A stretch of 64,000 nucleotides of DNA, taken from positions 2,263,001 through 2,327,000 of the forward strand of contig NZ_CP012643.1 in assembly GCF_001310085.1 (NCBI RefSeq). Reading direction: 5' to 3'. Shown here piece by piece: positions 2,350 to 63,681 of the stretch; the stretch's first letter is position 1; each line of letters begins with the position of its first letter. A program made the position numbers and the translations under genes. The notes under the pieces are model-generated. The model made no database searches, was not told the origin of the DNA, and saw nothing but the letters and a program-made list of their open reading frames with translations. This DNA comes from Rufibacter tibetensis (GTDB taxonomy: Bacteria > Bacteroidota > Bacteroidia > Cytophagales > Hymenobacteraceae).

Positions 2350-2380
2350 GGCTGATTTTCTGTAAATAGGCCTGAAATAA
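2350..2380. repeat. Dispersed A/T-box element, representative copy
   Basis: CTGATTTTCTGTAAATAGG followed by CCTGAAATAA, ten bases after the polA stop. One of about 18-20 related intergenic copies; the others are listed in the findings. Confidence 0.6.
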
Positions 2381-2385
2381 AATTC

Positions 2386-2431
2386 ATATAAATAGAAAAG
2401 GGAGCTTACGGGCTCCCTTTTCTATTTATAT
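2386..2431. terminator. Bidirectional terminator between polA and lipoprotein gene
   Basis: A perfect 20-base inverted repeat (2386-2405 with 2412-2431) encloses the loop TTACGG. The A-rich start and T-rich end of the arms make it usable by the convergent genes on both sides. Confidence 0.9.
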
Positions 2432-2443
2432 GGTCAAGCTAAT

Positions 2444-2914
2444 TTATTCAGCAGAAAATGTGATGGTTTCTGTTACTTTCACCTTGTTGATAGTAGCAGT
2501 GCTCACTATTTTAAAGGTGTTTTTATCAAGCTTATCTATGGTGTAAGTTGATTCTTCTTCGCCTTTTAATTGACCCATAATTGAAAGCGGAAAATCCCAG
2601 GTGATTTTTTCATCTTTAACATCATAAGAGCCGTCAAATTCAGAGGAACCGTTGCTTTCTGTGGTTAGGTAATACTCTCCTTCACCATCAAAGGAGGCAA
2701 AGATGTCTCCGCCGTAATCTTCTTCAATGGCATCGTAGTCTTCCTGGCCGGTAGCTGTCACAATGTGGCCTGTCACTTTCCATTCGTTTTTCTCTAATTG
2801 GCTAACATCAATTCTTGGAGTTACTTCACCGTCTTTGTCCTTGTCTTTGTCGCAGGAAGTGAAAACAAGAACGAAGGCTGCTAAAATGGTCAGTAAATAA
2901 GATTTTTTTAACAT
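2444..2914 (-). CDS. Lipocalin-like lipoprotein
   Basis: A 156-residue predicted lipoprotein. The N-terminus has two lysines, a hydrophobic stretch and a lipobox FTSC with the modified Cys at residue 21, followed by an acidic and lysine-rich DKDKDKDG linker. The remainder is short beta-rich segments (NEWKVTGHIV, KITWDFPLSIMG, STYTIDKLDKNTFKIVS, KVTETITF), the pattern of small Bacteroidota lipocalin-like lipoproteins. It would sit in the outer or inner membrane; ligand unknown. It resembles the next minus-strand gene (3482-3943) in size, signal and the K-N-x-W opening strand, so the two may be diverged paralogues. Start is the ATG giving MLKKSYL. Confidence 0.75.
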   Translation of the reverse strand: MLKKSYLLTILAAFVLVFTSCDKDKDKDGEVTPRIDVSQLEKNEWKVTGHIVTATGQEDYDAIEEDYGGDIFASFDGEGEYYLTTESNGSSEFDGSYDVKDEKITWDFPLSIMGQLKGEEESTYTIDKLDKNTFKIVSTATINKVKVTETITFSAE

Positions 2915-3352
2915 GATTGTAAATGAATAAAATGAAACAAAAGTAGTTTGAGGTTATAATTAGGTTTGATATTCACTCTTAATTATGCTTCGGGAATAAG
3001 CCTTTTATCTGCTTTAATTACTTAGGCAATGCCTTGTATTTTCATTCTTTGGCATTGTGCAGTTAGAAGGTTATTTCCGTTTTCTGTAGTTATGACCGAA
3101 CCATTATAGATTACCCCTAAAGAAGATTCCGGGCAAAAGGCCACATACTACCCGAAGCCGGAATATGGGTGAGTGAAACCGGAACACTCAGGATGGAAAT
3201 GGAATATTTTTTTTTGGCTTAATTTTTAAAAACCAGCACCAAAGAAGAAGAGGTTGAGTGAAAGAAGGCTCTGAGGAAAATGATTTTGTCTTCCAGAGGT
3301 AATAGGCTGGGGCAAGGGCACATAGAACAGGTGGTGCCTAGACCTGTAAACA

Positions 3353-3398
3353 GAAAGGCCTGCCCTACTACTTGGGAGTGTAGTAGGGCAGGCCTTTC
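3353..3398. terminator. Long hairpin, 19-bp arms
   Basis: Perfect inverted repeat 3353-3371 with 3380-3398 (GAAAGGCCTGCCCTACTAC and its complement) around an 8-base loop. Downstream of the minus-strand lipoprotein gene that ends at 3482, beyond a second hairpin. Confidence 0.75.
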
Positions 3399-3402
3399 AT
3401 GA

Positions 3403-3457
3403 AAAGAGGCTTAAAACAGAAGAGAGCGAAACCGTCTCTTCTGTTTTAAGCCTCTTT
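3403..3457. terminator. Long hairpin, 23-bp arms
   Basis: Perfect 23-base inverted repeat, 3403-3425 with 3435-3457, loop GCGAAACCG. It lies 25 bases after the stop of the minus-strand lipoprotein gene and is its likely terminator. The arms contain the CTTAAAACAG string seen in the dispersed A/T-box elements of this window. Confidence 0.8.
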
Positions 3458-3481
3458 CAGGATATGAGACTATGATAGTAC

Positions 3482-3943
3482 TTACATGGTCTCCATGGTT
3501 ACAGTGCCATTGATAGGGAAGCCCTGTACAGATTGTGAAAAATTAGCTGTAAGCGAAGTGCTGGTAAGTTCTGTTACTGTCAGTTCCAAGTCATCCTCTG
3601 GAAGTCCATATGCCTCTCCAATGCCCCGTAAAGTAAGGATATTCCCTTTTAATGTCCAGGAACCATTTCGCCGCTGCGGGTCAGATGAACGGCATTTGGT
3701 GGCGCCTTCATCTATAATGAGCTCTTCATCGTCTTCAAATTCAACAAAATTGTCGCGCTGGCAATCTTCCATATCAGCGTAGAAATCATAGTCGCCAATA
3801 GGAGTAGAGGCGTCCAAAGCAGTAATCTGCCAGCGCTTGTTCTTCAGCATATCTTCCTGAGAAGGATCATCATCGTCGCTGCTACAGCCATTGAAGACAA
3901 GGGCGCAGCAGAATAGGAGAAGTAGAAGAGGATAGTTTTTCAT
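3482..3943 (-). CDS. Lipocalin-like lipoprotein
   Basis: A 153-residue predicted lipoprotein, start taken at the ATG giving MKNYPLLLLL (an in-frame TTG lies three codons upstream). Lipobox FNGC puts the lipidated Cys at residue 20, followed by SSDDDD, the acidic run often seen in surface-sorted Bacteroidota lipoproteins. The opening MLKNKRWQITALDAS, the GSWTLKGNILTL strand and the Thr-rich C-terminal strands fit the lipocalin-like family. Two Cys in the mature part (DCQRDN, TKCRSS) could form a disulfide. Function unknown. Probably a diverged copy of the lipoprotein at 2444-2914. Confidence 0.75.
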   Translation of the reverse strand: MKNYPLLLLLFCCALVFNGCSSDDDDPSQEDMLKNKRWQITALDASTPIGDYDFYADMEDCQRDNFVEFEDDEELIIDEGATKCRSSDPQRRNGSWTLKGNILTLRGIGEAYGLPEDDLELTVTELTSTSLTANFSQSVQGFPINGTVTMETM

Positions 3944-4045
3944 AAGAATCAAGTTCAGATTTTAAGATAGGGTGTATACGAATTTATCTAATGGATGACT
4001 TAAAAGGGAAAAAAATCATCAGGAATTGAAAAGCCAGATGATACA

Positions 4046-4078
4046 CAAAAAGACCAGCCATTACAGCTGGTCTTTTTG
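4046..4078. terminator. Terminator of the porin-hydrolase operon
   Basis: Perfect 13-base inverted repeat 4046-4058 / 4066-4078 (CAAAAAGACCAGC and complement), loop CATTACA, just past the stop of the minus-strand SGNH hydrolase gene. Confidence 0.85.
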
Positions 4079-4098
4079 GCCTGAAAAATGAGGTAAAA

Positions 4099-5538
4099 TT
4101 ACGGGAATAGAACTGCTCTGAACTGAGTCACATCAATGGTTGGAATGGTTGAGCCGTACTTAGCATTGATAGCCCGGATCATTTCGTTTGCAACGATGGC
4201 GTTTCCGCGGGGAGTTAGGTGCACCCCGTCAAGAGAGAACAGGTTGCCTGTTATAAACGCAGGAGAGTGGAAAACACCGTTCACAGTTAAACCAGATTGA
4301 ATGTTGTTGAAAAATTCAAACACATCAAACAAAGCTAAGTCGTTGGCCTGCGCCTGGGCTCTTATGGTAGCATTATAGGCAGTAGTAGCAGCCTGCACAT
4401 CGGCTTGCTCATCTGCATCTAAGATTAAAGCGCTGGGTAACGGGTTCTCTGCGCTTACCCCAAAGGCTTTGGTAGTATCTAGCTGATAATTCTGCAAGTA
4501 TCTTCTGATTTCCTGGTTCATGGCAGCAGCGTCGTTCGGGAACTTCGCTCTTGCCTGATCACGCCAGAATCTGCCGGTAGGCTGACCTATCAGAGTCAGA
4601 TATGGAGTAGAAGTAAGGGTAAATAAAGTATTGCCAGTGGTGCCCACCCTAATGTCATCACGCGGGATCACTTTACGGGCAGCTCCGCTTTTGGTAAGGG
4701 CAACTACTGCGGTAACCGCTGAGGGTAAACCTGCCTTAAATACAGGCCCTACTGTAGTAAAAAACGGTATTGAGCGTACATCTGGAATAGTAGCTACAAT
4801 GCCTTTTGCCGCTTTGTTTCTGGATAAACCAGCCACTAGCTGTGTGTAAATGGCATTAAATTGAGCCGTTGGAGTGATAATGCCAAATGGATTGGCTGGG
4901 TCTACCACGCCTCCGCTGGTAGCATAGGCAAGTACGTCATTGTTCCCTAGCCACACGGAAAAGAAGGTAGGCTGCGTGGCCACTACTTTCTGGATGTAAC
5001 TTACCTGGCCAACTTCATTGTCTGGCAACAAGCGCTCAAAGTAGGGGTTTACACCTCCGTACAGCGGAGTGGCACTCGCTAAGACAGAGATACCAGGTAC
5101 TCCCCAGTTCTGGATAGCTCCAGCATGCTTAGTCAGGCGTGGGCCACCAGGCAAAGGAGCGACATCTGTTCTAACGGCTAAGTTGGTAGTCACTGGAGCA
5201 AGGATGGGAGCACCAGTAGAGGTAAAGCCACCCAGGCGTAAGTAACCAGAGCCATTTGCCTGCGCCTGCGTGAACAGAGGTTGCGGGAAGGCGCCACCAC
5301 CTACGTAGCTGAACTGGTTGGCCAGAATATTAGGGTAAGACAGAATCTGTCCTTCTAAGTACAAGCCATTGTCCTGGTACCCGGCAGTAAGGGAGTTTCC
5401 AACAGCTACATACTTGCTTAAATCCAACGGCCCTTGGCTTACAACAACGTCTTCTTCAAATTCAGGATCACAGCCAGTAAAAAGGAAAGCGCTGGAAAGG
5501 AGAGCCGCAGCACCTAATCTATAGAATATGTTCTTCAT
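4099..5538 (-). CDS. SGNH/GDSL-family hydrolase lipoprotein
   Basis: A 479-residue lipoprotein of the SGNH hydrolase superfamily (esterase/lipase-like). The signal peptide ends in lipobox FTGC (Cys23). Block I is VAVGNSLTAGYQDN with Ser49 as likely nucleophile; block III appears as WLGNNDVL near residue 198; block V is DGVHLTPRGN near 437, giving the catalytic Asp and His. It begins 13 bases after the stop of the FadL-type porin gene, so both are one transcript. Known family reaction: hydrolysis of ester bonds. The inference, from the pairing, is handling of lipid-like substrates taken up through the porin. Substrate not predictable. Confidence 0.9.
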   Translation of the reverse strand: MKNIFYRLGAAALLSSAFLFTGCDPEFEEDVVVSQGPLDLSKYVAVGNSLTAGYQDNGLYLEGQILSYPNILANQFSYVGGGAFPQPLFTQAQANGSGYLRLGGFTSTGAPILAPVTTNLAVRTDVAPLPGGPRLTKHAGAIQNWGVPGISVLASATPLYGGVNPYFERLLPDNEVGQVSYIQKVVATQPTFFSVWLGNNDVLAYATSGGVVDPANPFGIITPTAQFNAIYTQLVAGLSRNKAAKGIVATIPDVRSIPFFTTVGPVFKAGLPSAVTAVVALTKSGAARKVIPRDDIRVGTTGNTLFTLTSTPYLTLIGQPTGRFWRDQARAKFPNDAAAMNQEIRRYLQNYQLDTTKAFGVSAENPLPSALILDADEQADVQAATTAYNATIRAQAQANDLALFDVFEFFNNIQSGLTVNGVFHSPAFITGNLFSLDGVHLTPRGNAIVANEMIRAINAKYGSTIPTIDVTQFRAVLFP

Positions 5539-5551
5539 GATACCTTAGAAA

Positions 5552-6805: not shown

Positions 6806-6833
6806 TAAAAATGGCTGGATTTATTTCTTATAG

Positions 6834-6851
6834 ATTTGATAATCAAATATA
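6834..6851 (-). promoter_or_regulatory. -7 element and overlapping palindrome upstream of porin gene
   Basis: On the minus strand TATATTTG (6851-6844) matches the Bacteroidota -7 consensus TAnnTTTG. It overlaps ATTTGATAATCAAAT (6834-6848), a perfect 7-base inverted repeat around one base, which is placed where a repressor would block the promoter. No clear -33 TTTG was seen, so this is a moderate call. Confidence 0.5.
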
Positions 6852-6875
6852 AAAGAATTGCTCAGGTTTTCGCAT

Positions 6876-6901: not shown

Positions 6902-7054
6902 TTAGAAATATTAATCTTCCTTTCCAGGATGAGTCAGCAGGTGAATCACTTGTACAAGAGTGCTGTTAAGGGTATAGAAAGAAAAAAGCAGGGCTGAGCT
7001 CATCTCTTTTCTGCCAAACACGTTAAGCCATGACTGGTTAAGAGATAGAAACCT

Positions 7055-7948: not shown

Positions 7949-7976
7949 ACTGCAGCAATCTTTAGTTAAGCCTAAT

Positions 7977-8022: not shown

Positions 8023-8183
8023 TTTTATTTTTATTGTGGAATACCAGAAGCGCAGAAGAAACAGGTGCCAGGCTTTGAATGCGTTTTTAGAAAATCAGCC
8101 TTGAAACAGTTGGCAGTTTGAAGGGAGCAAATCACTTCTTACTTATGGAGAACAATTTGGTCTCTGCTTCCAAAATAGAATAG

Positions 8184-10703: not shown

Positions 10704-10755
10704 ACACTCCCGTTTGGAGGCTGATTTCATGAAAACAGCCTCCAAACGGGAGTGT
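10704..10755. terminator. Terminator after CstB-like gene
   Basis: Perfect 20-base inverted repeat 10704-10723 / 10736-10755 (starts ACACTCCCGTTTGGAGG). Its loop ATTTCATGAAAA is a piece of the dispersed A/T-box element. Confidence 0.88.
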
Positions 10756-11837: not shown

Positions 11838-11923
11838 AGCTGAAGATTAAGGCTAAAAGTGCGGTTGTGGTTTCAAATCAGTTTTCATAAAACAAGTTTG
11901 AAACATCCCCTCAACTTTCCCCT

Positions 11924-13213: not shown

Positions 13214-13285
13214 TTAACTGCTAGTTCCTTGTTGTTTCGGGTTTGTTTTCCTGAAATGAGCTTTGAACAGAAAGTGCCTTCTGGG

Positions 13286-14110: not shown

Positions 14111-14512
14111 ATGAGTGAGAACGAAGCCCCTTTAAAACCCACCGAGACCGAACTGGAAATCCTGCAGATCTTGTGGCAGCACGGCCCCAGCACCGTTCGG
14201 TTTGTAAACGAAGAGCAGAGCAAAGCCAAAGAAACCGGGTACACCACTACTTTAAAACTGCTGCAGATCATGCACGAGAAGAACCTGGTTTCCCGCGATG
14301 AGGAAAGCCGCTCGCATGTGTACCAGGCCGCCGTAACCGAAGAAGAAACCCAACAGCACCTCCTGGGCCGCTTCCTGGATACTACCTTCCGGGGCTCGGC
14401 CATGAAATTGGTGATGCAAGCCTTAGGCAACCACCGCACCACCCCAGATGAATTAAATCAAATCCGCCACCTATTGAAGAAACTGGAAGATGACTCAAAC
14501 GCTGATTCATGA
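14111..14512 (+). CDS. BlaI/MecI/CopY-family repressor
   Basis: A 133-residue winged-helix repressor. LKPTETELEILQILWQHGPSTVRFVNEEQ is the family helix-turn-helix start, TGYTTTLKLLQIMHEKNLVSRDEESRSHVYQA the recognition helix and wing. Known mechanism: it dimerises on operator palindromes and is inactivated by proteolysis triggered by the partner M56 membrane protease. Here the partner gene overlaps by 23 bases, and three matching palindromes precede the operon. No beta-lactamase gene is adjacent, so the output is probably not classical resistance. Confidence 0.93.
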   Translation: MSENEAPLKPTETELEILQILWQHGPSTVRFVNEEQSKAKETGYTTTLKLLQIMHEKNLVSRDEESRSHVYQAAVTEEETQQHLLGRFLDTTFRGSAMKLVMQALGNHRTTPDELNQIRHLLKKLEDDSNADS

Positions 14513-16562
14513 TGCAATTCCGCAGGCAGTGATGCACGCCTTAGGTTACACGCTCCTGCACTCTCTCTGGCAAGGAGCTTTAATGGCCCTGCTGGTGGGC
14601 GTTTTGCTAAGATTGATGCACCGGCACTCGGCAGCTACCCGTTACTGGGTAACGTGGGGCGGCCTGATGGCCTTGCTGCTTCTTTCAGTGGTCACTTACT
14701 ACAACCTCTATACTCCTGCCGTCTCCTCTAAAGAAGTGGCAGCATTAGCCTCAGCCGGAGGTATTGACTGGAAAACTACCATCCTGCAAACGGCTCCGCC
14801 CTCTTTCTGGGAGAACGCGTTAGCACAGGGGCACGCCTATTTCAACCAGCATCTGCCAGCAGTGGTCATGCTATGGCTTTTGGGCATGTTGCTGATGGGG
14901 TTGCGCGTGCTGGGGGGCTGGGTGTATGTGCAACGCCTTAGGTCTTATCGAACCCGGCTGGTGCCACAGGAGTGGCAGCAAAAAACGCAGGAGTTATCCC
15001 GCCGGTTAGGAATGCGCCAATTAGTGAAGGTGGCAGAGTCTGCCCTGGTGCAGGTGCCCATGGTCATTGGACACTTCAAACCTTTGATCTTACTGCCGGT
15101 GGGGGCATTAACAGGCTTGTCCACTGCCCAAATAGAAGCCATTCTGGCGCATGAACTGGCGCACATTCATCGCCGCGACTACCTCCTGAACCTGTTGCAG
15201 AGCTGGGTAGAAACTTTGTTTTTCTTCCACCCAGCTGTGTGGTGGATTTCTGATTGCGGCCGCACCGAGCGCGAACACGCCTGCGATGACCTGGCCCTTG
15301 CGCTCTGCGGAGACTCCCTTAACTATGCTTACGCTTTAACTCACTTAGAAGAACTGCTCATGAAAACAAACGAAACCTCTCCCCGTCTGGCCATGGCTTT
15401 TTCGGGCCGTCGCCGGTCTTTGCTGAGCCGCATTACCCGGTTAGTACAGAAATCAACCCTTCGTCCATCCTTTTCTGAAGGGTTCCTGGCCAGTTGCGCG
15501 ATTATTGCCGGCGTAATGGTCTTTTCGGCCAGTGCCTGGGCTAATTACACGTTACCCGATCAATCTTTACAGGGGAATACTTTGGAGGAGAAGCCTGCAT
15601 CGGGTAAATCTTCCATCGTTGTAGCGCCTCAGGAGGAAACGCAAGAGCCACACGAAGAAGACCTGACATTGCAGCAACTGGATGATGACCTCATCATTGT
15701 GCAAAACAAAAAAGGCAAGGTGGTAGAGGTCTATGTGAATGGACAGCGTGTGCCTAAAAGTGAGTTAGGCAAGTACCAAAGCCGCATAGAGCAACAGTTA
15801 GCAGCAGCCAAAAAAGGCAAAACCCTCCGGGACGATGACGAAGTGGAAAGAGCTATGGAACGGGCAGAAGCATCCCTGGAAAGAATAGAAGAGGAAGAAT
15901 TCTTCAGAGGCCCAAGACGCATGGCACCCAGACCTCCTATGCCGCCTATGCCACGTGGCGTTGCCCCCAGAAGAGGAGTAGCCCCGGTGCCTCCTGTTCC
16001 ACCAGTTCCTCCGGTGCCCCCTTTATCCGATGACAAGGAAGGTAACAAAGACTACCAAAAAGCCTTGAAGGAATACGAGGCACGCATGAAAGAATATCAG
16101 GCCAGAATGGCCGAGTTTGGCACCAAGCAACTGGAGTTTGAGGCCAGAATGCAAGTCAGGCATGGTGCCCGCATGGAGGAGAATGCCCAACGGCTGGAAG
16201 AGCACAGCCGCCGGATAGAGGAGCATACTTTTCGGTTAAAAGACCATGAGAAACGCCGGGCCGAACACACCGTGCGCATGAAAGAGCACGAGGAGCGCAG
16301 AAAGAAACATGATGCCATGATGAAAGAACTCCAGACTGCATTGGTGGCTGATGGCCTGATCAAATCCACTGACGAGGACTATGAATTTAATCTGGATAAA
16401 AACGGGCTTACCGTGAATGACAAAAAGCAATCAGAGGCCTTGTTCCAGAAGTACAAGAAGATTATTCAAACCAATACTGGGGAAGACGTGGAACTGATGC
16501 TGAAGAAAGACGGAGCCAACTTCAGGGTCAAATCTAATGTAAGCACTGAGAGAACCAAGTAA
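14490..16562 (+). CDS. BlaR1/MecR1-like M56 metallopeptidase with long coiled-coil tail
   Basis: A 690-residue membrane protease. Residues 1-~300 have several membrane segments (ALMALLVGVLLRLM, YWVTWGGLMALLLLSVVTYY, PAVVMLWLLGMLLMGLRVLGG) and the zinc site HELAH at 221-225 with a later EREHACDD that supplies the third ligand. A further segment near 335-352 (ASCAIIAGVMVFSASAWA) ends the M56 module. There is no penicillin-binding sensor domain. Instead come a charged stretch, a proline block (~476-513, PPVPPVPPVPP) and a highly charged helix (~520-615) with repeated E-x-H/R-x-x-R-x-E units. Operon partner of the BlaI-type repressor, overlapping it by 23 bases. Confidence 0.9.
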   Translation: MTQTLIHDAIPQAVMHALGYTLLHSLWQGALMALLVGVLLRLMHRHSAATRYWVTWGGLMALLLLSVVTYYNLYTPAVSSKEVAALASAGGIDWKTTILQTAPPSFWENALAQGHAYFNQHLPAVVMLWLLGMLLMGLRVLGGWVYVQRLRSYRTRLVPQEWQQKTQELSRRLGMRQLVKVAESALVQVPMVIGHFKPLILLPVGALTGLSTAQIEAILAHELAHIHRRDYLLNLLQSWVETLFFFHPAVWWISDCGRTEREHACDDLALALCGDSLNYAYALTHLEELLMKTNETSPRLAMAFSGRRRSLLSRITRLVQKSTLRPSFSEGFLASCAIIAGVMVFSASAWANYTLPDQSLQGNTLEEKPASGKSSIVVAPQEETQEPHEEDLTLQQLDDDLIIVQNKKGKVVEVYVNGQRVPKSELGKYQSRIEQQLAAAKKGKTLRDDDEVERAMERAEASLERIEEEEFFRGPRRMAPRPPMPPMPRGVAPRRGVAPVPPVPPVPPVPPLSDDKEGNKDYQKALKEYEARMKEYQARMAEFGTKQLEFEARMQVRHGARMEENAQRLEEHSRRIEEHTFRLKDHEKRRAEHTVRMKEHEERRKKHDAMMKELQTALVADGLIKSTDEDYEFNLDKNGLTVNDKKQSEALFQKYKKIIQTNTGEDVELMLKKDGANFRVKSNVSTERTK

Positions 16563-16723
16563 CGGGTCTTCTTGAACACTATTTAGCGACAATCCCTTTC
16601 CTGCTGTTTTAAGCATGCTTTTCTAAAAAGGCTGCTGAAACAATTGGAAGGGGATTGGTGTGTTTGGCAGTTTCTATCCGCAATAAAGAACTTCTATAGT
16701 TTCAAAAACCGGGGTTGAACTGC

Positions 16724-17808: not shown

Positions 17809-18071
17809 AAGACAAAGATTTTTCTGAGGCTTTGGTGTAAGATACAGGCTGGCTCTAATCCTGCTGAGCATCATTCAATGTTGTAGAATAAACATACGCT
17901 TTATTGTTGAGATTAACAGAGATGTATCTGGCTAAAGGAAATGAGCTGCTCTTATAGTCTCAAAATTGTCAGACCTCTTTCGGCTTGTTTTTTCAAAACC
18001 AGTTCTGAAACAGAGTGCCTCCTCAACGCTGGTAAATCCGTACATTCGCTTGAGTTTTAAGACACGCGCGT

Positions 18072-18590: not shown

Positions 18591-18798
18591 CTTGTTTTGT
18601 GGCTGCTTTTAAGATAAAAGGCTTAAAACAGAGCTGCGGAGATTTTTCATAACTGCCGGAGCTCAGCCTTCTGCTATCTTTTCCCGGAAAGTACAGAACG
18701 AAGTTTTTTCTGTGCCGGCTTGTCTTGAGAGAAGGCATTGATACTTGCCTTAGATTACAGTATATTGCTTCTTATATATAGCCAGTATTTGAAGCTTT

Positions 18799-20608: not shown

Positions 20609-21246
20609 GTCACATTCTGCTTCATTTTAAAAGCCAGGCCCCGGTTGATCCTTCAACCGAGGCCTGGCTTCTTTTATTGGTAAGCTTAATAAGGTTCCTC
20701 TTCTCCCTTCATGGTTGGACGCAGGCCTAGGATTCAAGTTAGTGAGGGAAGTGCCGAACAATGGCTGAAGCATGTAACTTCTGCTTTGGATTGGTTCTGC
20801 CTGCCACGCTTCTTAGATATGCTGCTTAGCATCTTTGTTCCAAAGTAACTTGGCTCCTAGGCTTAGAAAATAGCAGAGTAGAGCAACAAACGAGTTTTTG
20901 CAACGAAAGTATGTTTGGAAGGTTATTGTATTTTTCTACCTTTTTTACAGAAATGTAGATAGAAACGAAAATAAAGTTGCATCAGAAAACACGAAGTTAA
21001 CAAAGCTATAATGAAGCTTTTTCGCTCATAAACGGCACCTTTTCTTGTGTGTTCCTGCTATGTTTCAAATTTACATTGATATGAGAATATGTGAGGTTAA
21101 ACGAACGCTTGTTTTTGGTGGAAAAATGCAGTTATATTATTCAAATATAGGAAAACCCACTTGACATAATTCCCCGTAGGTACCATTCAAAATCCCTTTA
21201 CAACCTACAAACAAACATTATTCTAAAACCTTTACCCCCTTACTGT
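20609..21246 (+). other. Intergenic region, 638 bases
   Basis: Contains a strong terminator (20631-20670) and then ~570 bases without an ORF, AT-rich from 20880 to 21240. TTTTTGG near 21111 followed by TATATTATTC near 21133 is a weak promoter candidate for the subtilase gene. No repeat recognised. Confidence 0.5.
20631..20670 (+). terminator. Terminator after head-GIN gene
   Basis: Inverted repeat 20631-20648 / 20653-20670 (AAGCCAGGCCCCGGTTGA, one mismatch), loop TCCT, followed by a short T-run. Confidence 0.88.
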
Positions 21247-24050: not shown

Positions 24051-24282
24051 TTGTTTTAGCAAGAATAGCTCAGTTCTGGGTTTGAGAACAGAACCTCCTT
24101 CAACTAACCCTTCACCTGAGATAGCTCCTGCTTTTGTAAATTATCCTACGGATTAGCGGCAATTATCCTGTTTTAAGGCTGTTTTCTGGATTTTGGCTTG
24201 TTTTCCTGCCTAACAAGCGTTAAACTTAAGAGTGCAAATCTTTTGCATTGGAAAACCTGTCGATTACCTAACAAACAAACTC

Positions 24283-28173: not shown

Positions 28174-28309
28174 TTAACAAGTATCATCGCTACTAGCAAA
28201 GCTGTTTTTCCAAGCATTTTCTGAAAAACACTCCCTAAACACTATGGCGATTACCTCAACAATCGCTTACTTACTAATCAAAGTAATTGACGTCTAGTTT
28301 ACGCCCCAC

Positions 28310-30364: not shown

Positions 30365-30439
30365 AGTAGTTCTGAGCCTTCTTTTCTAAAATCAGCCTGA
30401 AAACAAATCTTATCTTTCCCTTCGGCAGAAAGCATAAAA

Positions 30440-30494
30440 AAGCGGTCCCTTTTACCGGCTCTTTTCAGAAAAAGGCTGGTAAACGGGACCGCTT
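30440..30494. terminator. Bidirectional terminator between convergent operons
   Basis: Near-perfect 21-base inverted repeat, 30440-30460 with 30474-30494 (starts AAGCGGTCCC; two mismatches), preceded by A-run and between convergent genes DUF58 and M16. Confidence 0.88.
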
Positions 30495-33939: not shown

Positions 33940-34152
33940 TCAAAAAGCATTAAAAATAAAAAGGGTCGTTTGTAAGGATGGCGCGTTTTTGGCTTTGTTT
34001 CCAGAAAGCATCCTTAAAATTAAGGCATTTTTCCCAAAAACTGTTCCATTTGCCTGATTGCCTAACAGATAGTTCTCCTTTTTTCATCTGTTGATTAAAC
34101 CAAAGGCCAGCAATTCTTTCTAATCTGTAAACCCACTAACCAAAACAATAGT

Positions 34153-37533: not shown

Positions 37534-37583
37534 TCTTTTAAGGTTGTTTTTAGAAAAAGCAGCTGAAAACAGGCTAAGGAATT

Positions 37584-38060: not shown

Positions 38061-38227
38061 GAAAGACTTTCCGCAGTAAGGCACATTCCTTATGCTTTGG
38101 CTGCGCCTCTCTCTTTATCTCACAAAGACTAATCTGCCTCGTTCATAGAAAAAGTACTGCGTTTTAAGCCCTTTTTCTCTACTTTGCCCAGAAACCAACT
38201 GGCGTCCTGTCGCTTTTTCCCGCTGCT

Positions 38228-39094: not shown

Positions 39095-39307
39095 TCCTGA
39101 ATGCTGAATCTTGCGTTATGAGTCTTTTTCTTTAGATTAATTTACCCTCAATTCCTCCACCTGTTTTCTGGGGTGTTTCATGAAAACAGGCTTTAAACCA
39201 TCTTTTTACCTGAATCAGCACTCAAGTCTCAGAACTTTTCAGACTTTTTTCAAAAATTTTCTGAAACTGCTGTAATGACTTCTCACCTCAGTCGTCTCTG
39301 TTAATGA

Positions 39308-42378: not shown

Positions 42379-42411
42379 GCCCATTTAGAACCTGTTTTGA
42401 GATAATAAGCT

Positions 42412-42451
42412 GAAAAGAGCAAAGGGACTTATAATCCTCTTTGCTCTTTTC
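42412..42451 (+). terminator. Terminator of the ECF sigma operon
   Basis: Perfect 13-base inverted repeat 42412-42424 / 42439-42451 (GAAAAGAGCAAAG) with a 14-base loop. Its left arm is shared with an A/T-box element starting at 42391. Confidence 0.8.
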
Positions 42452-42621
42452 GGTTTAGACTGATTTGTAAACCTGGCTTGTAGCTGCTTCTACCACCCGG
42501 GTTGCTTCTGAGAAAAAGTGGTTGTGGCGTCTTTTCTTAGAAGTAAGGACAAAACAGAAGAGACATTCTTCTTTTCTGGGCTCTTTTCCGCAAATTAGCC
42601 TCTAAACGAAAATATTCTCCC

Positions 42622-43773: not shown

Positions 43774-43899
43774 ATCAGGAATGTTTCAGGGGTAGTTTCT
43801 AGAAAATTGCAAGAAACAGCCTTTGTATTTATCTGATTCATATCTTTTCCGTATTTGAACTGCAATACTGTATGTTCACGCGAAACCAACACCTACTCT

Positions 43900-45998: not shown

Positions 45999-46230
45999 AC
46001 TCTGCCTTAACGTTCCTGTTTTAATTCTTATTTTCTGAAAAGCACTATGAAACTACTTAGTAGTGAAGAGGGCCACCATTGCTTTAAGGCTATTTTCTGT
46101 AAAACACCTTAAGAAAGAACACCTTCATGGCGAAGGGCAAGCAGCTTGGTGCGGGTAATTTGTTGGCTTCTGTTTAGATAAAGGTTAGTTACCTGTGTTG
46201 TTGGCTCCTGCATTTGCCTTTGCAGAAAGT

Positions 46231-46665: not shown

Positions 46666-46814
46666 GTCGCAAAAAGTAAGAAGTAAAAGTAGAAAGCAGG
46701 CCGTTGGGGTAAAAGAACTGCTAACAAAATGTTAAGGAAGGGCGACAATTCCTGTGTAACGTTAAATATAAGTTAATTAACGTTTTGGTGCTAGTATTAC
46801 GAAAAAAGGCCCTA

Positions 46815-46822
46815 TATATTTG
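46815..46822 (+). promoter_or_regulatory. Candidate -7 element TATATTTG
   Basis: Exact match to TAnnTTTG. A TTTG is present at 46785-46788 but the 26-base spacing is too long, so only the -7 element is supported. Points towards the small ORF at 46913. Confidence 0.35.
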
Positions 46823-47092: not shown

Positions 47093-47436
47093 CATGCTTT
47101 AAAACAATGATTTAAGTAAATGGCACGCAACTTGTATTTCTGTTAAACGAGCAATGGAATTCAAGAGTAGTAGCAGATATGGAAAGATTTTGAACAGTTT
47201 TTTAAAAACTAAATAAAAAATTAAAATAAATCTGCAACTGCAAGCAACCTTCTTTTAGATTCTGCATCTATTAGAATATAACACAAACATAAAGAAATCT
47301 TACATGAAAATAATAGGTGCAAAAATCGCCCTGGATCTTTACGTCCTTTTGCAAGATAAAAGGTGTTTTACTGAAGTAATAATTTAAAAATATCAAGATT
47401 GTTTTCTTATCAATTAACTCATTTAATTTAAAAGCC

Positions 47437-49760: not shown

Positions 49761-49800
49761 GGGCCGTTTTAAGCCGTTTGTCAGAAACAGGGCCGGAAAC
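49761..49800. repeat. Dispersed A/T-box element, representative copy
   Basis: GTTTTAAGCCGTTTGTCAG, then AAACAGGGCCGGAAAC, between the two Hsp20-like genes. Shows the consensus order T-run, CTG/CAG, A-run, AGGCC, A-run. Confidence 0.6.
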
Positions 49801-51895: not shown

Positions 51896-52081
51896 CACGT
51901 AACCATTTAGGGACTGTTTTAGAAAAATTAGCCAGAAAGCACCGTTTGCCCTGGTTGCTTTTGCCTGTGACCCCTGACAAAATAAAAAGGCCTTTCAGTA
52001 GAATCTAAGGCCAGTAAGAACTTTGTTGAAAGCCATTGTTGCCCTATAAGCGACTTTACCATTTGAATCATACACTACTTT

Positions 52082-53246: not shown

Positions 53247-53654
53247 GCTCCCAAAGGAGTTTGTCTCTGCTTTTTATGCCATTGCTGCCCATTAATTTCC
53301 CTGCTTTTACACGTGAATTTTAAAGCCTATAAATGGATGTCTTTTGATTTGCTGTTCCCTTTTGGGTATCAGCATTTACAGATAGGAAGGAGAAGCCATA
53401 ACAAGCTTCTTTTTTTGTCTTCAGGCTTAAAGGAGTAGAAGAAGTAAAAGAGACCAGAACTGTCTTTTACGCCTGCTTTTGTGATTTCAGGCCAAAAGAA
53501 CAGGATGCTTCTTCACCTTTCACTAGTACTTATGCTTTTAGATAAGAAGCAGAGATAACCTAAGAGTATGCTCAACTTTTTACCTCATGCAACCATTTTG
53601 AAGGCAAAGAACTCTTCCTAATAGTAACCATTATGAAGTGTAATGCCCTCAAAA
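53247..53654 (+). other. Intergenic region, 408 bases
   Basis: No ORF. Contains an A/T-box-like stretch near 53468-53496 (GCCTGCTTTTGTGATTTCAG then GCC). Otherwise nothing recognised; should hold the promoter of the lipoprotein at 53655. Confidence 0.4.
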
Positions 53655-54472: not shown

Positions 54473-54526
54473 GCAACTCTCACTTTAGGCCCAATTTTAC
54501 AAAATTAGGTCCAAAGCGAGAGTTGC
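54473..54526. terminator. Long imperfect hairpin between convergent genes
   Basis: 26-base arms 54473-54498 / 54501-54526 with four mismatches. The mismatches read as G-U wobbles when transcribed from the minus strand and as A-C on the plus strand, so it is more stable as the terminator of the minus-strand gene at 54569. Confidence 0.75.
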
Positions 54527-54802: not shown

Positions 54803-54910
54803 TGCACTTCTATTTGAAGGTTCGCTAATTGTTAAAATACACGATTCTGTTCTGGTTTAGACGCATTTTAGTTTAAACATGGCTGAAACGGATGGCTCAT
54901 ACATGCGCCC

Positions 54911-58639: not shown

Positions 58640-58827
58640 ACGCTTACACTAATATGTGACGGATGACGTACCATCCAGATATTTCTCTCCCATGCGCTTT
58701 TGCGCTGGAGCATGCTTTTGGCTTGATTTTACTTGAGGGCCCTGCTCCAACCGACTGTTGGGTGCTTTGGGCCTGTTTTTAGAGAAACAACCCCAAAGCG
58801 CTTTAGGGCTGTCCAGGGGGTAATAGA

Positions 58828-59787: not shown

Positions 59788-59906
59788 AGACTAAACGGTT
59801 TCTTGCTCTAACTTTATTAAAAGGGTGCGCCTTCAGGCGCTGTCTCTCGCCTTATAACAGTGGCTTAACGATTAAGTTAAGAAGCAGTTGTTGTGGGTTG
59901 AGAATT

Positions 59907-59914
59907 CAAATATA
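59907..59914 (-). promoter_or_regulatory. Candidate -7 element of nrdB
   Basis: Minus-strand TATATTTG matches TAnnTTTG exactly, about 120 bases before the nrdB ATG. No -33 TTTG at the right distance. Confidence 0.45.
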
Positions 59915-59975
59915 GGGACAAATACGTTGGTTGCCCCTTTGGAGCAGCCTAATTTACCAACTTCTTATACAGCAG

Positions 59976-59984
59976 TTATCCACA
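59976..59984 (+). promoter_or_regulatory. DnaA box (perfect)
   Basis: TTATCCACA, identical to the consensus 9-mer, 190 bases upstream of nrdB. Confidence 0.6.
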
Positions 59985-60562
59985 ATATAATCAACTGGTA
60001 ACATATTGTAAATCAGGTGTTTAAAATGTTATAAAAATTAGAAACCTCAAATATATACTTTGCTCTATGGCTTGAATGATGGTATCTTAAAGGATAGTAG
60101 ATAATTTTAAAGAGGTAAATCAGGCGATTTAAAACACGCCTTTTGCAAGCTCTGAGTAGCGTCTGCTTTAGCTTCCTGAACTTCAGAGATGAGGGTGCAC
60201 GCTGCCTTAGGAGACAAGCGAAAACAAGTGTGTTTTGGAGCTGGGTTTCTGATTTTGCGCTGAAAACGAGATAGCCAGAAAGCATCAAATTCTGAAAGGC
60301 AGACAGTGGTTCTGTCATCTTTTGTCATTTTTAGACACCAGTTAGCTGGTGTCTTGCCGCTTGAGATTTCAGGCAGATAAGGAAATGCTTGTTGTCTAGC
60401 CTTAGTTGGTGGGTGAGAAAACAAATTTGCTGCTGCTCTTGACTTTACCTAAATCAATAGCTACTTTCATTTACATTTCAGCTGGAAAGTTGACTCTCTT
60501 TGATCAGTTGTAAATGCCCTGTTCTGACCGCTTTTCCAGAGTGGTTCTCTCTTCTTGTGTCT

Positions 60563-60625
60563 TTATCCACTTGTAAGTAATTGATAATCAGTATAGGTTT
60601 GGTTTATCCACCAAAGTTATCCACA
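60563..60625 (+). promoter_or_regulatory. Cluster of three DnaA boxes
   Basis: TTATCCACT (60563-60571), TTATCCACC (60604-60612) and perfect TTATCCACA (60617-60625), all in the same orientation within 63 bases. A degenerate GGGGGATAA at 60630-60638 faces the other way. Confidence 0.65.
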
Positions 60626-60701
60626 TGCTGGGGGATAACTCATAACCTATTAAAAATCAGTTTACTACCTTTAAAAACAGAGGTAAATTAGTAGACGTGT
60701 A

Positions 60702-60733
60702 TTTGGATATTAGCTTGAGCGTCCGTACTTTTG
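60702..60733 (+). promoter_or_regulatory. Bacteroidota promoter of rplU-rpmA
   Basis: TTTG at 60702-60705 and TACTTTTG at 60726-60733 with a 20-base spacer match the -33 TTTG / -7 TAnnTTTG consensus. Transcription would begin near 60740, leaving a ~25-base leader before the rplU ATG. Confidence 0.8.
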
Positions 60734-60765
60734 CGGTTCAATTTTTTAAAAAATATCGTAAGCTG

Positions 60766-61074
60766 ATGTACGCAATTGTAGAAATCGCTGGTATCCAGAC
60801 GAAAGTAGAGAGCGGTAAGTTCTTCTACACTAACAAGCTTTCCGGCAATGAGGGTGACGCCGTAGAGTTCGCCAATGTTCTTTTAACTGATGACAACGGA
60901 AATTTAACCGTAGGTGCTCCTTTTGTAGACGGAGTAAAAGTAACTGGAACCATCCAGGGACACGCCAAAGGTGACAAAGTGATCGTTTTCAAGAAGAAGA
61001 GAAGAAAAGGCTACAAGAAGAAAAACGGTCACCGCCAACAGTACACCAAAGTGTTGATCAACACCATTGGTTAA
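60766..61074 (+). CDS. rplU: 50S ribosomal protein L21
   Basis: A 102-residue L21; binds 23S rRNA domain near L20. Start at ATG 60766 (MYAIVEIAGIQTKVESGKFFYTNKL) because this is the conserved N-terminus and the promoter lies within the longer frame. Ends with the basic KKKRRKGYKKKNGHRQQYTKVLI motif typical of L21. First gene of the rplU-rpmA operon; strong promoter immediately upstream. Confidence 0.98.
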   Translation: MYAIVEIAGIQTKVESGKFFYTNKLSGNEGDAVEFANVLLTDDNGNLTVGAPFVDGVKVTGTIQGHAKGDKVIVFKKKRRKGYKKKNGHRQQYTKVLINTIG

Positions 61075-61143
61075 TTTTTGAGGTAAAGGAAAATTATTGT
61101 AGAACCTATCTCTGGCTTTTGCCAGGATTAAAATAGAATAGAA

Positions 61144-61449
61144 ATGGCTCACAAAAAAGGTGTCGGTAGTTCTAACAACGGCCGCGAATCACATTCCAAG
61201 CGCTTAGGCGTGAAAATTTTTGGTGGTCAAACCATCATCGCTGGTAACATCATTGTACGTCAGCGCGGTACTGCGCACCACCCAGGTGCAAACGTAGGTA
61301 TCGGTAAAGACCACACCCTGTTTGCTTTGACAGACGGTATCGTACAGTTTAAAAAAGGCGTGAAAAACCGTTCTTTCGTATCTGTTCTTCCTTTAGATGT
61401 AGACGCCGCTCAGGTTACTACTACTCCTTCTGAAGAAGTTACTGCCTAA
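61144..61449 (+). CDS. rpmA: 50S ribosomal protein L27
   Basis: A 101-residue L27: [29 protein letters not shown] carries the N-terminal arm that reaches the peptidyl-transferase centre (no cleavable extension as in Firmicutes). Core [25 protein letters not shown] is conserved. 69 bases after rplU, same operon; terminator follows. C-terminal [15 protein letters not shown] extension is a little longer than in E. coli. Confidence 0.98.
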
Positions 61450-61480
61450 GCATCCCCTCGGCTTCCGCCGATCAAGATTT

Positions 61481-61514
61481 CAAAGAAGGCTGCCTTTTAG
61501 GGCAGCCTTCTTTG
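61481..61514 (+). terminator. Terminator of rplU-rpmA
   Basis: Perfect 14-base inverted repeat CAAAGAAGGCTGCC (61481-61494) / 61501-61514, loop TTTTAG, T-run after it. Confidence 0.93.
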
Positions 61515-62009
61515 TTTTTGAGTGTTTTTGGGAAAAGAGGCCGGATTCTGGAAAGGGATAAAATGCGTGAATATGCAGGTGTAAACATCCCCTTCGCCTC
61601 CTTCAAAAGGAGAGCATCGACTTTAATGGTTCTTCCTTGAAGTATCAGCTAATGTTTTGAGGCTATTGCCTCACTGCAGTTGCAAACTGCAGCCATTGTG
61701 GGTCCAAGTCGCAGACTTGAACCATGTTCTCTTGCATGTAAACTTGAACCATGGTTCCTTAAAGCAAGCAAAGGCCACCCATTTTCCTTTTCCAGCCTTT
61801 CGTCTGAGCGCCTAGGACTCGACCCGGTGCCGCGTTAGGGGCAGCCCTGGGGGGCAGGCGAGAGGCCACAGCGCGAGGGCGGAAGGCGGGGCCCCGCGGC
61901 CGTGAGCGCTTATCGGCAAAGATGAAACAATAAAGCCCATGAACCCACGCAAAAGGCACTTACTCTAAGGGAAAAGCAAAGGGCTTCAGCAGAATAAAAG
62001 AGGAAGAGT
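61515..62009. other. Repeat-rich convergent intergenic region
   Basis: 495 bases between rpmA and the cyclase gene. Holds CTGCAGTT-GCA-AACTGCAG (61674-61692), AAGTC-GCA-GACTT (61706-61718), a direct repeat ACTTGAACCATG (61715-61726, 61742-61753), and copy B of the GC-rich repeat (61786-61945). No ORF credible. Confidence 0.7.
61786..61945. repeat. GC-rich dispersed repeat, copy B
   Basis: Second copy of the element at 11924-12093, same orientation. The 29-base core (61887-61915) is identical to copy A; the left end TCCAGCCTTTCGTCTGAGCG lies 82 bases upstream of the core (84 in copy A). Confidence 0.8.
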
Positions 62010-62816
62010 TCAATGCGGTGCCTCCACAAAAGAAATCTCAGGAGCCAAACCATCAGGTTGCAACGCATACAAAACCGGTTTGCTAGGACTAGCATCCAAG
62101 ACCAAACTGGTCACCTGCAAATTCAACAGATACCATCCATCCGCCACCGCATCCGGCACAAAGATCAATTCTGTAATAGTAGCCTGAGTCCGGGTTTGAA
62201 AAGGATACTGCCAAAACGCATGGTGCGCTAACAAAGCCCCGCCATCTTCCTCCCTATCAACCGAAGGTAAATCCAATAAAAGATGCTCTACTCCATATTG
62301 AGCCAGGTATTCCGCTAAAGCAGGCTCAATGTAAGTAGGATTAGTGCCGGAGTACTGGGTAGTGCGTTTGCTTTCAGAATTAGGAAGCGTGCGCAACACC
62401 AACGCTTCGGGAAGGTCGGCTTCATCCAACTGGGTTAAAACATCTTTCGCTAGCACCACTAGATCACCGTTATCCTGTCGCTGAGGAGTAACAGAAACCA
62501 GTTGCGCCACAAACAGGAATCGGCTTAGGCAGTGGTCTAACGTGGCGGTCGGATCAGGCGAGATATGACCGTAGCATTCGGTGTGGGTGCCGTTGCCGTG
62601 GGGCGTAAGATGGACGCGCTGGTAATTGGTGGAACCACCTTGCGCCACGCTGCCTACAAAATCGCCTACGGTGATAGTCTCTACCTGCACCGGCTCGGCC
62701 CAAAAGCAATTTACGTTCTCAGAACCCGACCTGAGAGGAAGGGAGATATCCAATGGCTGTAGCGGATTGAACTGATAGGTACGATTCCGTAAAGTAATAG
62801 AAGCAGAGGAAAGCAT
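62010..62816 (-). CDS. Putative cyclase / kynurenine formamidase-like protein
   Basis: A 268-residue metal-dependent hydrolase of the cyclase family (PF04199 type; includes bacterial kynurenine formamidase KynB). LDISLPLRSG opens the fold; HLTPHGNGTHTECYGHI is the metal site (HxxxHTxxD/E variant: H-G-N-G-T-H-T-E). LLLDLPSVDREEDGGALLAHHAFW carries the later conserved Asp/His. Reaction is probably hydrolysis of an N-formyl or cyclic amide, but no tryptophan-pathway genes are near. A/T-box element 12 bases upstream. Confidence 0.85.
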   Translation of the reverse strand: MLSSASITLRNRTYQFNPLQPLDISLPLRSGSENVNCFWAEPVQVETITVGDFVGSVAQGGSTNYQRVHLTPHGNGTHTECYGHISPDPTATLDHCLSRFLFVAQLVSVTPQRQDNGDLVVLAKDVLTQLDEADLPEALVLRTLPNSESKRTTQYSGTNPTYIEPALAEYLAQYGVEHLLLDLPSVDREEDGGALLAHHAFWQYPFQTRTQATITELIFVPDAVADGWYLLNLQVTSLVLDASPSKPVLYALQPDGLAPEISFVEAPH

Positions 62817-62827
62817 AGGACGTGCAT

Positions 62828-62862
62828 GTTTTAGACCTGTTTTACAAAAGTAGCCAAAATCA
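62828..62862. repeat. Dispersed A/T-box element, representative copy
   Basis: On the minus strand GGCTACTTTTGTAAAACAG followed by GTCTAAAACA, ending about 10 bases before the cyclase ATG. A minus-orientation copy placed at a 5' end. Confidence 0.6.
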
Positions 62863-62879
62863 GAGATTGACCAGAGATT

Positions 62880-63563
62880 TTAGGTCAGCGGGAAAGTGGC
62901 CAACAACCGGGTGTTTTCCTGACGCTGGTACCAGTCATTGCTTACTAACTCTACTTGGTCTATGACAGCCGTCCCAAAGTCATGCGCCCGGTACTCTCGT
63001 AGCTTTTGCAGAAATTTATCTGGCCTCTGCAGGGGTTCCCTGAACCGGATGACGGTGCTGTGGGCCGTAGAGATGGCATACCGCTGGTCAATGGATTGCT
63101 GCAGTCTGCAATCCCGGAAGGCTGTCCGCAAGTTTCCCCGTAGCTGGTGAAGGTCATCACTATACGGAAATCCTTGTAGGAGCACGCAGGAAGGCGAGGC
63201 TGTAATACCCTTGAACATCACCCTGAACGGCTGAATGGAGGCTAAAGCCTCTTTCACCAATTCAATATAAGGCTGAAGCTGGATGTCAGCCTCGGAAAAC
63301 CCCGGATAACACGAGATGATGCTCAATATGGTGAGGTGCACATCTGAGGTGGGGTAGTAGTATTGTTCGGGTTCTAGTGTAACCATTTCCTGCAAAAAGC
63401 ACTGAATGTTCTCCAGTACTTCTCCTCGCGGACGGGCCAGTAGCGTTATGCCTCTTCTGGTATCTGTGGGAGAATCAAGCAGGGCGTCAAACTCGTAGTT
63501 TCCTTTCAGAAATTGCGCCTCGGCGTTTTGCCAGAACTGGGTATAATGGGCTCTTAAATCCAT
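62880..63563 (-). CDS. 2H phosphoesterase-superfamily protein
   Basis: A 227-residue protein with the two H-x-T/S-phi motifs of 2H phosphoesterases (2'-5' RNA ligase/cyclic phosphodiesterase superfamily): VHLTILSII near residue 99 and AHSTVIRFREP near 167. GITLLARPRGEVLENIQCFLQEM and the short-chain ASPSCVLLQGFP strand fit. Likely acts on a cyclic or 2',3'-phosphate RNA end or nucleotide; often mislabelled 'mutarotase' in Bacteroidota. Cytoplasmic; same direction as the cyclase gene but 63 bases apart. Confidence 0.8.
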   Translation of the reverse strand: MDLRAHYTQFWQNAEAQFLKGNYEFDALLDSPTDTRRGITLLARPRGEVLENIQCFLQEMVTLEPEQYYYPTSDVHLTILSIISCYPGFSEADIQLQPYIELVKEALASIQPFRVMFKGITASPSCVLLQGFPYSDDLHQLRGNLRTAFRDCRLQQSIDQRYAISTAHSTVIRFREPLQRPDKFLQKLREYRAHDFGTAVIDQVELVSNDWYQRQENTRLLATFPLT

Positions 63564-63681
63564 GGGGAAGGTGATTTCCAGGTATTCGTTTTAGAGCAGA
63601 TTATGCTAAAATAAGCCTAATACAGAAAAGGTGCTGCGTTCTTCAACAAATGCTTTTCCCCGTGGAACAAGCTTTCTCTTT

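Follow-up and report, generated by a model that had tools for sequence, protein, structure and literature searches.

The closest described counterparts of the sequence element reported here are the DNA uptake sequence (DUS) dialects of the Neisseriaceae, the repetitive extragenic palindromes (REP) associated with tyrosine transposases (RAYT), and a spaced motif of A. ebreus. In the sections of the cited papers that deal with them, the Neisseriaceae sequences share with the element a high copy number, species dialects and a conserved core (PMC3630211), and the REP/RAYT palindromes share with it an intergenic location, palindromic structure and high copy number (PMC3733652, PMC12306157). The A. 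ebreus motif, GCTTAT(N)5AAGCG, is similarly a spaced intergenic palindrome often found in convergent gaps; the sections describing it give 114 copies, 44 convergent, 4 divergent and 59 co-oriented, with an unknown role (PMC5217627). The element described here is dispersed through the chromosome of Rufibacter tibetensis, and was studied in a stretch of 64,000 nucleotides (G000:C1:2263001-2327000, referred to as the window) of its genome, which is 5.41 Mb long and divided into three contigs ("own genome"). We hypothesize with moderate confidence, on the basis of sequence comparisons, that the element is a docking site for a putative genus-specific symmetric DNA-binding protein that marks the boundaries of transcription units and co-evolves with its sites.

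The element is 33-44 bp long and forms a rigid palindrome with the architecture TTT-N8-TTTT-NNN-AAAA-N8-AAA, and the letters between the tracts are rich in G and C. A symmetric 45-column matrix was derived by expectation-maximization (EM) from a palindromic seed, using eight 100-kb blocks from elsewhere on the chromosome, with the window held out. The training yielded 496 sites at threshold 11, compared with 45 in a second-order Markov shuffle. Unsupervised mixture EM on the intergenic DNA of the window drifted to bare A/T richness and produced no motif. Intergenic DNA was counted with 20-bp flanks, which gives 16.5 kb for the window. One site at a block edge of the own genome and one in genome G054 were dropped. 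The labels G006, G012, G017, G032, G048, G051, G054 and G304 denote related genomes of the same genus.

The window contains 42, 37, 28 and 22 intergenic sites at score thresholds of 10, 14, 18 and 22, respectively, against 2.4, 0.2, 0.0 and 0.0 in dinucleotide shuffles. The corresponding numbers for the 800 kb of training DNA are 344, 301, 255 and 191 sites, against 31.6, 5.6, 0.9 and 0.0. The original prediction had listed 21 copies of a recurrent element built of T-runs and A-runs in the gaps of the window, and all 21 places are recovered by the held-out matrix at a score of at least 10. The 18 copies presented as main ones score at least 16.7, and the three presented as weak score 12.4, 17.5 and 15.4. 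The list was genuine but incomplete, as 17 further intergenic sites score at least 14, for example those starting at 3211, 13235, 30451 and 42574. The places were also right, but the boundaries were often one-sided, and the palindrome mostly starts a few bases before the listed start. The prediction had further stated that equal numbers in shuffled DNA, or equal frequency inside genes, would speak against it. Shuffled intergenic DNA lies far below the real counts, and genes carry the motif at a density about 18-fold below that of intergenic DNA: at threshold 18, the 700 kb of coding DNA hold 58 sites (0.08 per kb), compared with 283 (1.5 per kb) in 189 kb of intergenic DNA. Coding sites nevertheless exceed those in synonymous-codon shuffles, with 104 versus 15.6 at a score of at least 14 and 58 versus 5.1 at a score of at least 18. 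They occur throughout the length of genes and in all three frames (30, 19 and 15 of 64 sites scoring at least 18, by a slightly different counting). The total of about 442 sites scoring at least 14 in 864 kb (338 intergenic and 104 coding) extrapolates to an estimated 2,600 copies per 5.17-Mb chromosome, or roughly 2,500 after subtraction of the shuffle expectation.

The sites of the window are as follows, with window coordinates and no strand assigned.

2345-2377: element, convergent gap directly downstream of polA, position shared by 5/5 Rufibacter/Sabulibacter polA loci including the own one; score 26.1
3211-3243: element, tandem gap, absent from the original list; score 28.2
3384-3416: weak element, strong on one side only; score 15.8
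3444-3476: weak element, only one side strong, orientation opposite to that at 3384; score 16.0
8074-8106: element, convergent gap; score 23.3
10714-10746: element of the hairpin subset, absent from the original list, 7/8 variable arm positions paired; score 25.1
11871-11903: element, convergent gap; score 27.7
13235-13267: element, convergent gap, absent from the original list; score 29.4
16608-16640: element, convergent gap; score 22.7
17977-18009: element, divergent gap; score 24.5
18596-18628: element, tandem gap, 5 bp after stop codon; score 26.4
20933-20965: element, tandem gap; score 20.0
24171-24203: degenerate element, originally listed as weak, below the score-14 cut; score 12.4
28207-28239: element about 100 bp before the next gene, with one at 94-104 bp before that gene in 6/6 orthologous gaps; score 22.2
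30370-30402: element, convergent gap; score 26.1
30451-30483: element, same convergent gap as 30370; score 27.6
33987-34019: element, divergent gap, with a site scoring at least 13 in 11/15 orthologous gaps; score 23.6
37537-37569: element 3 bp after stop codon, with one at 0-6 bp in 6/6 orthologous gaps; score 28.6
38162-38194: element, tandem gap; score 17.1
39165-39197: element, tandem gap, present in 6/6 orthologous gaps; score 31.0
42384-42416: element 5 bp after stop codon; score 25.6
42522-42554: element upstream of nagA; score 19.0
42574-42606: element upstream of nagA; score 27.5
43784-43816: element 10 bp after the nagA stop codon; score 17.2
46020-46052: element, tandem gap; score 24.0
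46083-46115: element, same gap as 46020; score 23.2
46784-46816: weak element, divergent gap; score 17.5
47187-47219: weak element; score 16.4
49767-49799: element, tandem gap; score 18.3
51906-51938: element, tandem gap; score 26.6
53465-53497: element, originally listed as weak; score 17.5
54484-54516: element, convergent gap; score 23.6
54856-54888: element; score 21.9
58765-58797: element between ribonucleotide reductase genes; score 24.5
60234-60266: weak element, originally listed as weak, divergent gap; score 15.4
61515-61547: element; score 21.9
62829-62861: element, tandem gap; score 16.7
63590-63622: element, tandem gap; score 21.7
1080-1112: element-like site inside polA, with scores of 18-30 at the same codons in four Rufibacter/Sabulibacter relatives; score 24.7

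The site inside polA may be explained by protein coding, because the peptide is conserved within the genus.

The positions of the element are conserved among species. The genus of the host (g1) is represented by 16 genomes. Gaps in 15 of these that are orthologous to element-bearing gaps of the window contain an element in 59 of 70 cases, compared with 17 of 52 for element-free gaps, although the counts are not independent, as one gap is recounted across genomes. By genome, G051 gives 20/22 versus 3/17, and the values are 0/1 for G054, 0/1 for G304 and 0/2 for G017. When the comparison starts from G048, 38 of 39 element gaps have a counterpart with an element in G006, G012 or G017, against 3 of 45 element-free gaps; here the same gap was counted up to once per genome, and the counts are uncorrected for length, longer gaps being likelier to hold an element. 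The same comparison with G051 and the own genome gives 4/5 versus 2/4. Counterparts exist for 63 of the 65 G048 sites in orthologous gaps, and in 43 cases the distances to a gene end agree to within 20 bp.

Each species spells the element according to its own consensus, or dialect, in which the G/C letters between the tracts are conserved and dialect-dependent. In the 43 placed pairs, 42 G048 copies and all 43 counterparts score best with the matrix of their own species, at a mean identity of 61% over 37 bp; the G048 matrix was derived from another G048 region and the G006 matrix from the compared region itself, and some counterparts were matched twice. Sites of the own genome score on average 22.4 bits with the own-genome matrix and 0.5 bits with the G048 matrix, whereas G048 sites score 44.6 bits with the G048 matrix and 28.2 bits with that of the own genome. 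These sequences are most simply read as old sites that kept their places and were rewritten in concert within each lineage. The original prediction had proposed a genome-wide element with a job, which is supported by the excess over chance and by the retention at orthologous positions in the genus.

A motif model and a scan of the genome and its relatives, which the original prediction had recommended, place the element within one genus. The exact pattern occurs 274 times in the own genome and once in the control, which is the same gapped pattern read backwards. All 14 genus genomes counted contain it, with 19-902 matches versus 0-3 in the control. The 46 other genomes of the same family have 0-11 matches versus 0-4 in the control; eight genomes of genus g4 sum to 48 versus 22, a mild excess, and the other 38 show essentially no excess. 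Across 247 genomes sampled from the phylum, the highest value apart from that of the own genome is 22 matches (control 9). Small excesses are seen in some of them (11 versus 2, 8 versus 0), and AT-rich genomes have similar counts in both orientations. Within the genomes sampled from the family, the element is restricted to the genus. G048 has only 19 exact matches, yet 117 sites in 279 kb, because the element is spelled there mostly with TTTC instead of TTTT. The product of the polA gene of the window is 96% identical to that of Rufibacter hautae, 93% to R. immobilis, 90% to R. roseus and 93% to Sabulibacter ruber, compared with 68-72% for Pontibacter species.

Putatively acquired DNA of the own genome is nearly free of the element. 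The 235-kb contig C2 was taken as a putative conjugative plasmid, as the nine of its proteins that were scanned include matches to TraG, TraM and coupling-protein families and a tyrosine integrase. It contains three sites scoring at least 18 in the 200 kb read, compared with 32-52 per 100 kb in nine chromosome blocks. The contig has room for more, as codon-score gene calls leave 49 kb of the part read non-coding, and 15 convergent and 70 tandem gaps measure at least 35 bp. On the chromosome, a single 20-kb stretch lacks the element (L036, C1:1500001-1520000). It encodes a type I restriction subunit, DUF3987 and DUF3871 proteins, a transposase, a match to a Cap4-like nuclease and a weak match to a STAND-like NTPase, and looks like a defence or mobile island. 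The 7.5-kb contig C3 contains three sites; its sole scanned protein matches BatA, and the contig may be chromosomal.

The element is concentrated at particular gene borders. With genes predicted by codon usage instead of annotation, so that small genes are missed and some "divergent" and "coding" assignments are wrong, the density of own-genome sites scoring at least 10 is 3.5 per kb in convergent gaps, 2.5 in tandem gaps, 1.4 in divergent gaps and 0.27 in coding DNA. The same order was found in G048, G006, G054, G012 and G017. Coding DNA makes up most of the G048 sequence but holds just 15 of its 117 sites. Among gaps of 35-90 bp, summed over the own and other genomes, 22/36 convergent and 25/159 tandem gaps contain the element and none of the 12 divergent gaps does, and the placement is therefore not only a matter of gap length. 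When all gaps of at least 35 bp are considered, the proportions are 63/96 convergent, 182/350 tandem and 41/99 divergent in the own genome, and 61/78, 161/344 and 29/83 in the others. Tandem gaps with a terminator-like hairpin contain the element more often than those without (46/70 versus 136/280 in the own genome, 29/42 versus 132/302 in the others), partly because hairpin-bearing gaps are longer. Convergent gaps show no link between the element and a terminator-like hairpin. Own-genome elements start in mild excess 2-8 bp after stop codons, with 49 sites over these 7 positions compared with about 3 per position at 9-59 bp; the distances are broader in the relatives, many being 5-20 bp. Downstream of polA (window 2345-2440), the stop codon is followed by the element and then by a distinct T-tailed hairpin, as judged by eye, in the own and four further Rufibacter/Sabulibacter loci (5/5). 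Nine polA loci of other genera, scanned whole, contain no element, except for one in L070.

The arrangement of the element resembles a DNA-binding site more than an RNA hairpin. The spacing is rigid, since an 11 x 11 grid of spacings confines the excess to adjacent registers of a single geometry, with counts such as 123 versus 6 and 118 versus 5 in the control orientation. The arms are independent: over 339 intergenic sites, the variable offsets 6-13 pair at a frequency of 0.24-0.41, compared with 0.28-0.38 expected from the columns (z from -2.9 to +1.9). Symmetry combined with independent halves fits the need of a dimeric protein, not that of an RNA stem. Half-sites rarely occur alone in four relatives. 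At a score of at least 18, 200 of 234 half-sites lie within palindromes in G048, with one solo in 279 kb, and 121 of 140 in G012 and G017 together, also with one solo; the numbers are 74/108 in G006 and 79/108 in G054, with no solo half-site in either. At lower thresholds, solo hits in the four relative data sets are near the reversed control. Sites in tandem gaps have no sense asymmetry (Wilcoxon p = 0.50) and, read in the sense orientation, the six bases that follow the outer AAA are not enriched in T. Rfam gave no gathering-level match in the window.

A minority of the copies form hairpins. In the own genome, 7 or 8 of the 8 variable positions are paired in 30 of 462 copies, compared with 3.3 after the halves were swapped between sites. 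Fully paired copies are in excess also in G048 (22 versus 10.9 expected), G054 (4 versus 0.4), G006 (8 versus 1.0), G032 (10 versus 0.5), G051 (3 versus 0.1) and in G012 and G017 together (5 versus 1.8), whereas copies with 7 of 8 pairs are below expectation in G048 (13 versus 20.4), G006 (2 versus 3.2) and G012 and G017 (7 versus 10.6). Hairpin copies with 7-8 pairs make up about 9% of the own intergenic sites, with none among 50 divergent-gap sites and 30 among 289 others. In the convergent gap of site 30451-30483, six relatives have a perfect or near-perfect hairpin with differing arm letters, and the own copy is less perfect; this copy is therefore under an RNA-like or symmetry constraint. 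A strict palindrome search gave 32 strand-wise matches versus 0 reversed, and many long perfect hairpins were among the matches listed, partly because a palindromic query biases toward hairpins. An RNA hairpin as the general nature of the element, which that search suggested, was dropped, as the arms of matrix-found sites do not co-vary and hairpins are only a minority.

The original prediction had offered three functions. The RNA stability or 3'-end signal is not supported in general, given the lack of arm covariation and of sense asymmetry and the occupied divergent gaps, but the hairpin minority, absent from the 50 divergent-gap sites, may act at the RNA level. The very small mobile repeat is unsupported, as the positions are ancestral and the contig with conjugation genes and the one defence island are nearly element-free. 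The nucleoid-protein site fits best, in view of the rigid spacing, dyad symmetry, independent arms and lack of strand preference.

We hypothesize that an abundant sequence-specific protein, particular to the genus, binds the element as a symmetric dimer or tetramer. Each half would make contact with a pair of T-tracts spaced by about 11 bp, both on the same side of the helix. Symmetry, rigid spacing and arm independence point to such a dimeric or tetrameric DNA-binding protein, and the fixed positions with coordinated change of letters argue for a trans-acting reader of drifting specificity. The protein would sit at transcription-unit boundaries, most often convergent, then tandem and least often divergent ones. 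The gap-class bias toward these borders suggests a boundary or insulator role, in which the protein would insulate neighbouring units by stopping or pausing RNA polymerase and would organise the nucleoid. Drift in its specificity would make the whole set of sites follow in place, giving rise to the species dialects. A minority of sites may have grown into perfect hairpins, probably doubling as terminators. The sequences themselves show that the element is abundant, symmetric and rigidly spaced, that its arms are independent and its solo halves rare in four relatives, that it is confined to the genus in the sample and nearly missing from the conjugative contig, and that its positions are conserved, its spelling dialect-specific and its placement biased by gap class; from this we infer the existence and nature of the protein, its occupancy of the sites in cells and its insulating role.

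Several observations weigh against this explanation. A pure 3'-boundary role does not predict the divergent gaps that carry the element, nor does DNA binding alone explain why own-genome elements prefer to start 2-8 bp behind a stop codon. Intervals between successive sites on the chromosome are irregular (coefficient of variation 0.91). The fully paired own-genome copies, 13 of 462 versus 0.3 expected, are an RNA-like trait of a minority, and the flanking offsets 21-24 pair slightly more than expected (maximum z 2.7). The half-matrix of the own genome is too weak (10.9 bits) to reveal a lack of solo halves, and at score 13 gives 109 solo hits versus 88 in the reversed control. At about 43 bits, the G048 consensus exceeds the information that a binding protein would be expected to require, which points to an additional homogenising force. 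No candidate reader protein was found, HU-HIG being the one DNA-binding family searched. HU-HIG proteins have been proposed as discriminators of self DNA, an idea on which the search of licensed PMC articles found no paper. The family gave one weak-to-moderate match in 6/6 genus genomes, which does not distinguish the genus and lends no support to HU-HIG proteins as readers.

A self-recognition sequence for DNA uptake or recombination, similar to DUS or uptake signal sequences (USS), would spread by molecular drive through preferential uptake, and its dialects would track changes of the receptor. It would account for the high copy number and species dialects, the near-absence of the element from the conjugative contig and one defence island, the coding sites above synonymous expectation and the very high information of the G048 consensus. 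Such a sequence is, however, expected as a directional unit occurring singly, whereas the unit here is a palindrome, and four relatives have few solo halves. Uptake would also predict many coding sites, which are scarce in G048. The strong gap-class bias in short gaps likewise speaks against uptake, which we consider unlikely. An RNA-level 3'-end element, the transcript hairpin of which would end or stabilise mRNA, is quite unlikely as well. The enrichment after stop codons and in convergent gaps, the perfect-hairpin excess with its absence from divergent gaps, the changed arms at 30451 and the more frequent occurrence in tandem gaps with a terminator-like hairpin are in its favor, but the arms of the large majority of copies do not co-vary, strand asymmetry and following T-rich bases are lacking, the polA element is followed, as judged by eye, by a separate T-tailed hairpin, and many divergent gaps are occupied.

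It is very unlikely that the element is a small mobile palindrome similar to REP/RAYT, with a Y1 transposase driving its multiplication. Its palindromic, mostly intergenic and high-copy nature and its species-specific consensus would agree with this, as would the Y1_Tnp matches in 13/14 genus genomes, most of which are weak. However, the positions are common to species, G012 has the element (107 exact matches versus 3) without a Y1_Tnp match, the conjugative contig is nearly element-free, and the consensus sequences of four species contain no conserved GTAG/CGTC tag. An origin from a mobile repeat long ago is possible, and present mobility is not supported. Phased A/T-tracts might also be selected only for curvature or flexibility at gene borders, with no dedicated reader, and the tract spacing near one helical turn within each half is consistent with this. 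The control arrangement AAA..AAAA..TTTT..TTT has similar phasing and is not enriched, and the G/C letters separating the tracts are conserved too, differing between dialects, which makes selection for curvature alone highly improbable.

A gene for a BlaR1-like membrane sensor (below the family cut-off) lies at 14111-16562 of the window, directly after a small overlapping gene, and the two are possibly a BlaI-type pair. Core palindromes were also counted in one genome from each of five sister genera, in 80 kb each. Genus g2 (e.g. L169-L172) contains a different dispersed palindrome, similar to TTTTT-N7-AAAACGNTANCGTTTT-N7-AAAAA. The core AAAACGNTANCGTTTT occurs 98 times in G001, 6 times in G007 and in none of 58 other family-sample genomes, an indication that Rufibacter is not alone in having a palindrome "language" at the genus level. 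In G059 (L173-L176, genus g6, GC 63%), CCCTAGGG is present 52 times in 80 kb versus 1.6 expected, and recalls highly iterated palindromes. In G002 (L177-L180, genus g3, 54% GC), 80 kb contain 18 copies of CATATATG versus 0.9 expected and 29 of TATATATA versus 3.6.

We tentatively propose a wider picture, in which some 2,500 palindromic boundary marks, fixed in place between transcription units, would be read by a rapidly evolving, genus-specific putative protein, would change dialect in concert and would set the chromosome apart as "self" from plasmids and islands, with at least one sister genus apparently using an unrelated palindrome of the same type. Concerted change of thousands of fixed sites is known for uptake-sequence dialects and, to our knowledge, undescribed for chromosome-organising or boundary proteins. 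A literature search confined to openly licensed PMC articles found no publication on such an element. If a single protein reads the sites, Rufibacter would offer a natural series of re-specified pairs of protein and site covering most convergent borders, and the existence of insulator-like chromatin marks in bacteria would become directly testable. The element may also serve as a sequence criterion for telling vertically inherited from acquired DNA in the genus.

The element resembles matS, KOPS and Noc boxes in that it would provide many specific protein sites on a chromosome, and differs from them in its far higher copy number, its tie to gene boundaries and its dialects within one genus. 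The minority of perfect hairpins, which in the own genome never lie in divergent gaps, is similar to Rho-independent terminators, whereas most copies have neither arm pairing beyond the consensus nor a following T-tract. As far as the relevant sections of the cited papers describe them, the known dispersed sequences differ from the element in the following ways. Unlike the REP/RAYT palindromes (PMC3733652, PMC12306157), the element has no conserved tag, its arms are mostly non-complementary beyond the consensus, its positions are inherited vertically, and one host has no Y1 match; the main text of PMC12306157 does not mention Rufibacter, Hymenobacter or Pontibacter. In contrast to the Neisseriaceae DUS (PMC3630211), the element is a rigid 33-44 bp palindrome with rare solo halves and a mostly intergenic location, and a role in uptake is only putative. 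The A. ebreus motif is described with its 114 copies from one genome (PMC5217627), whereas the element, at an estimated 2,500 copies, is genus-wide, is spelled in species dialects and is conserved in position.

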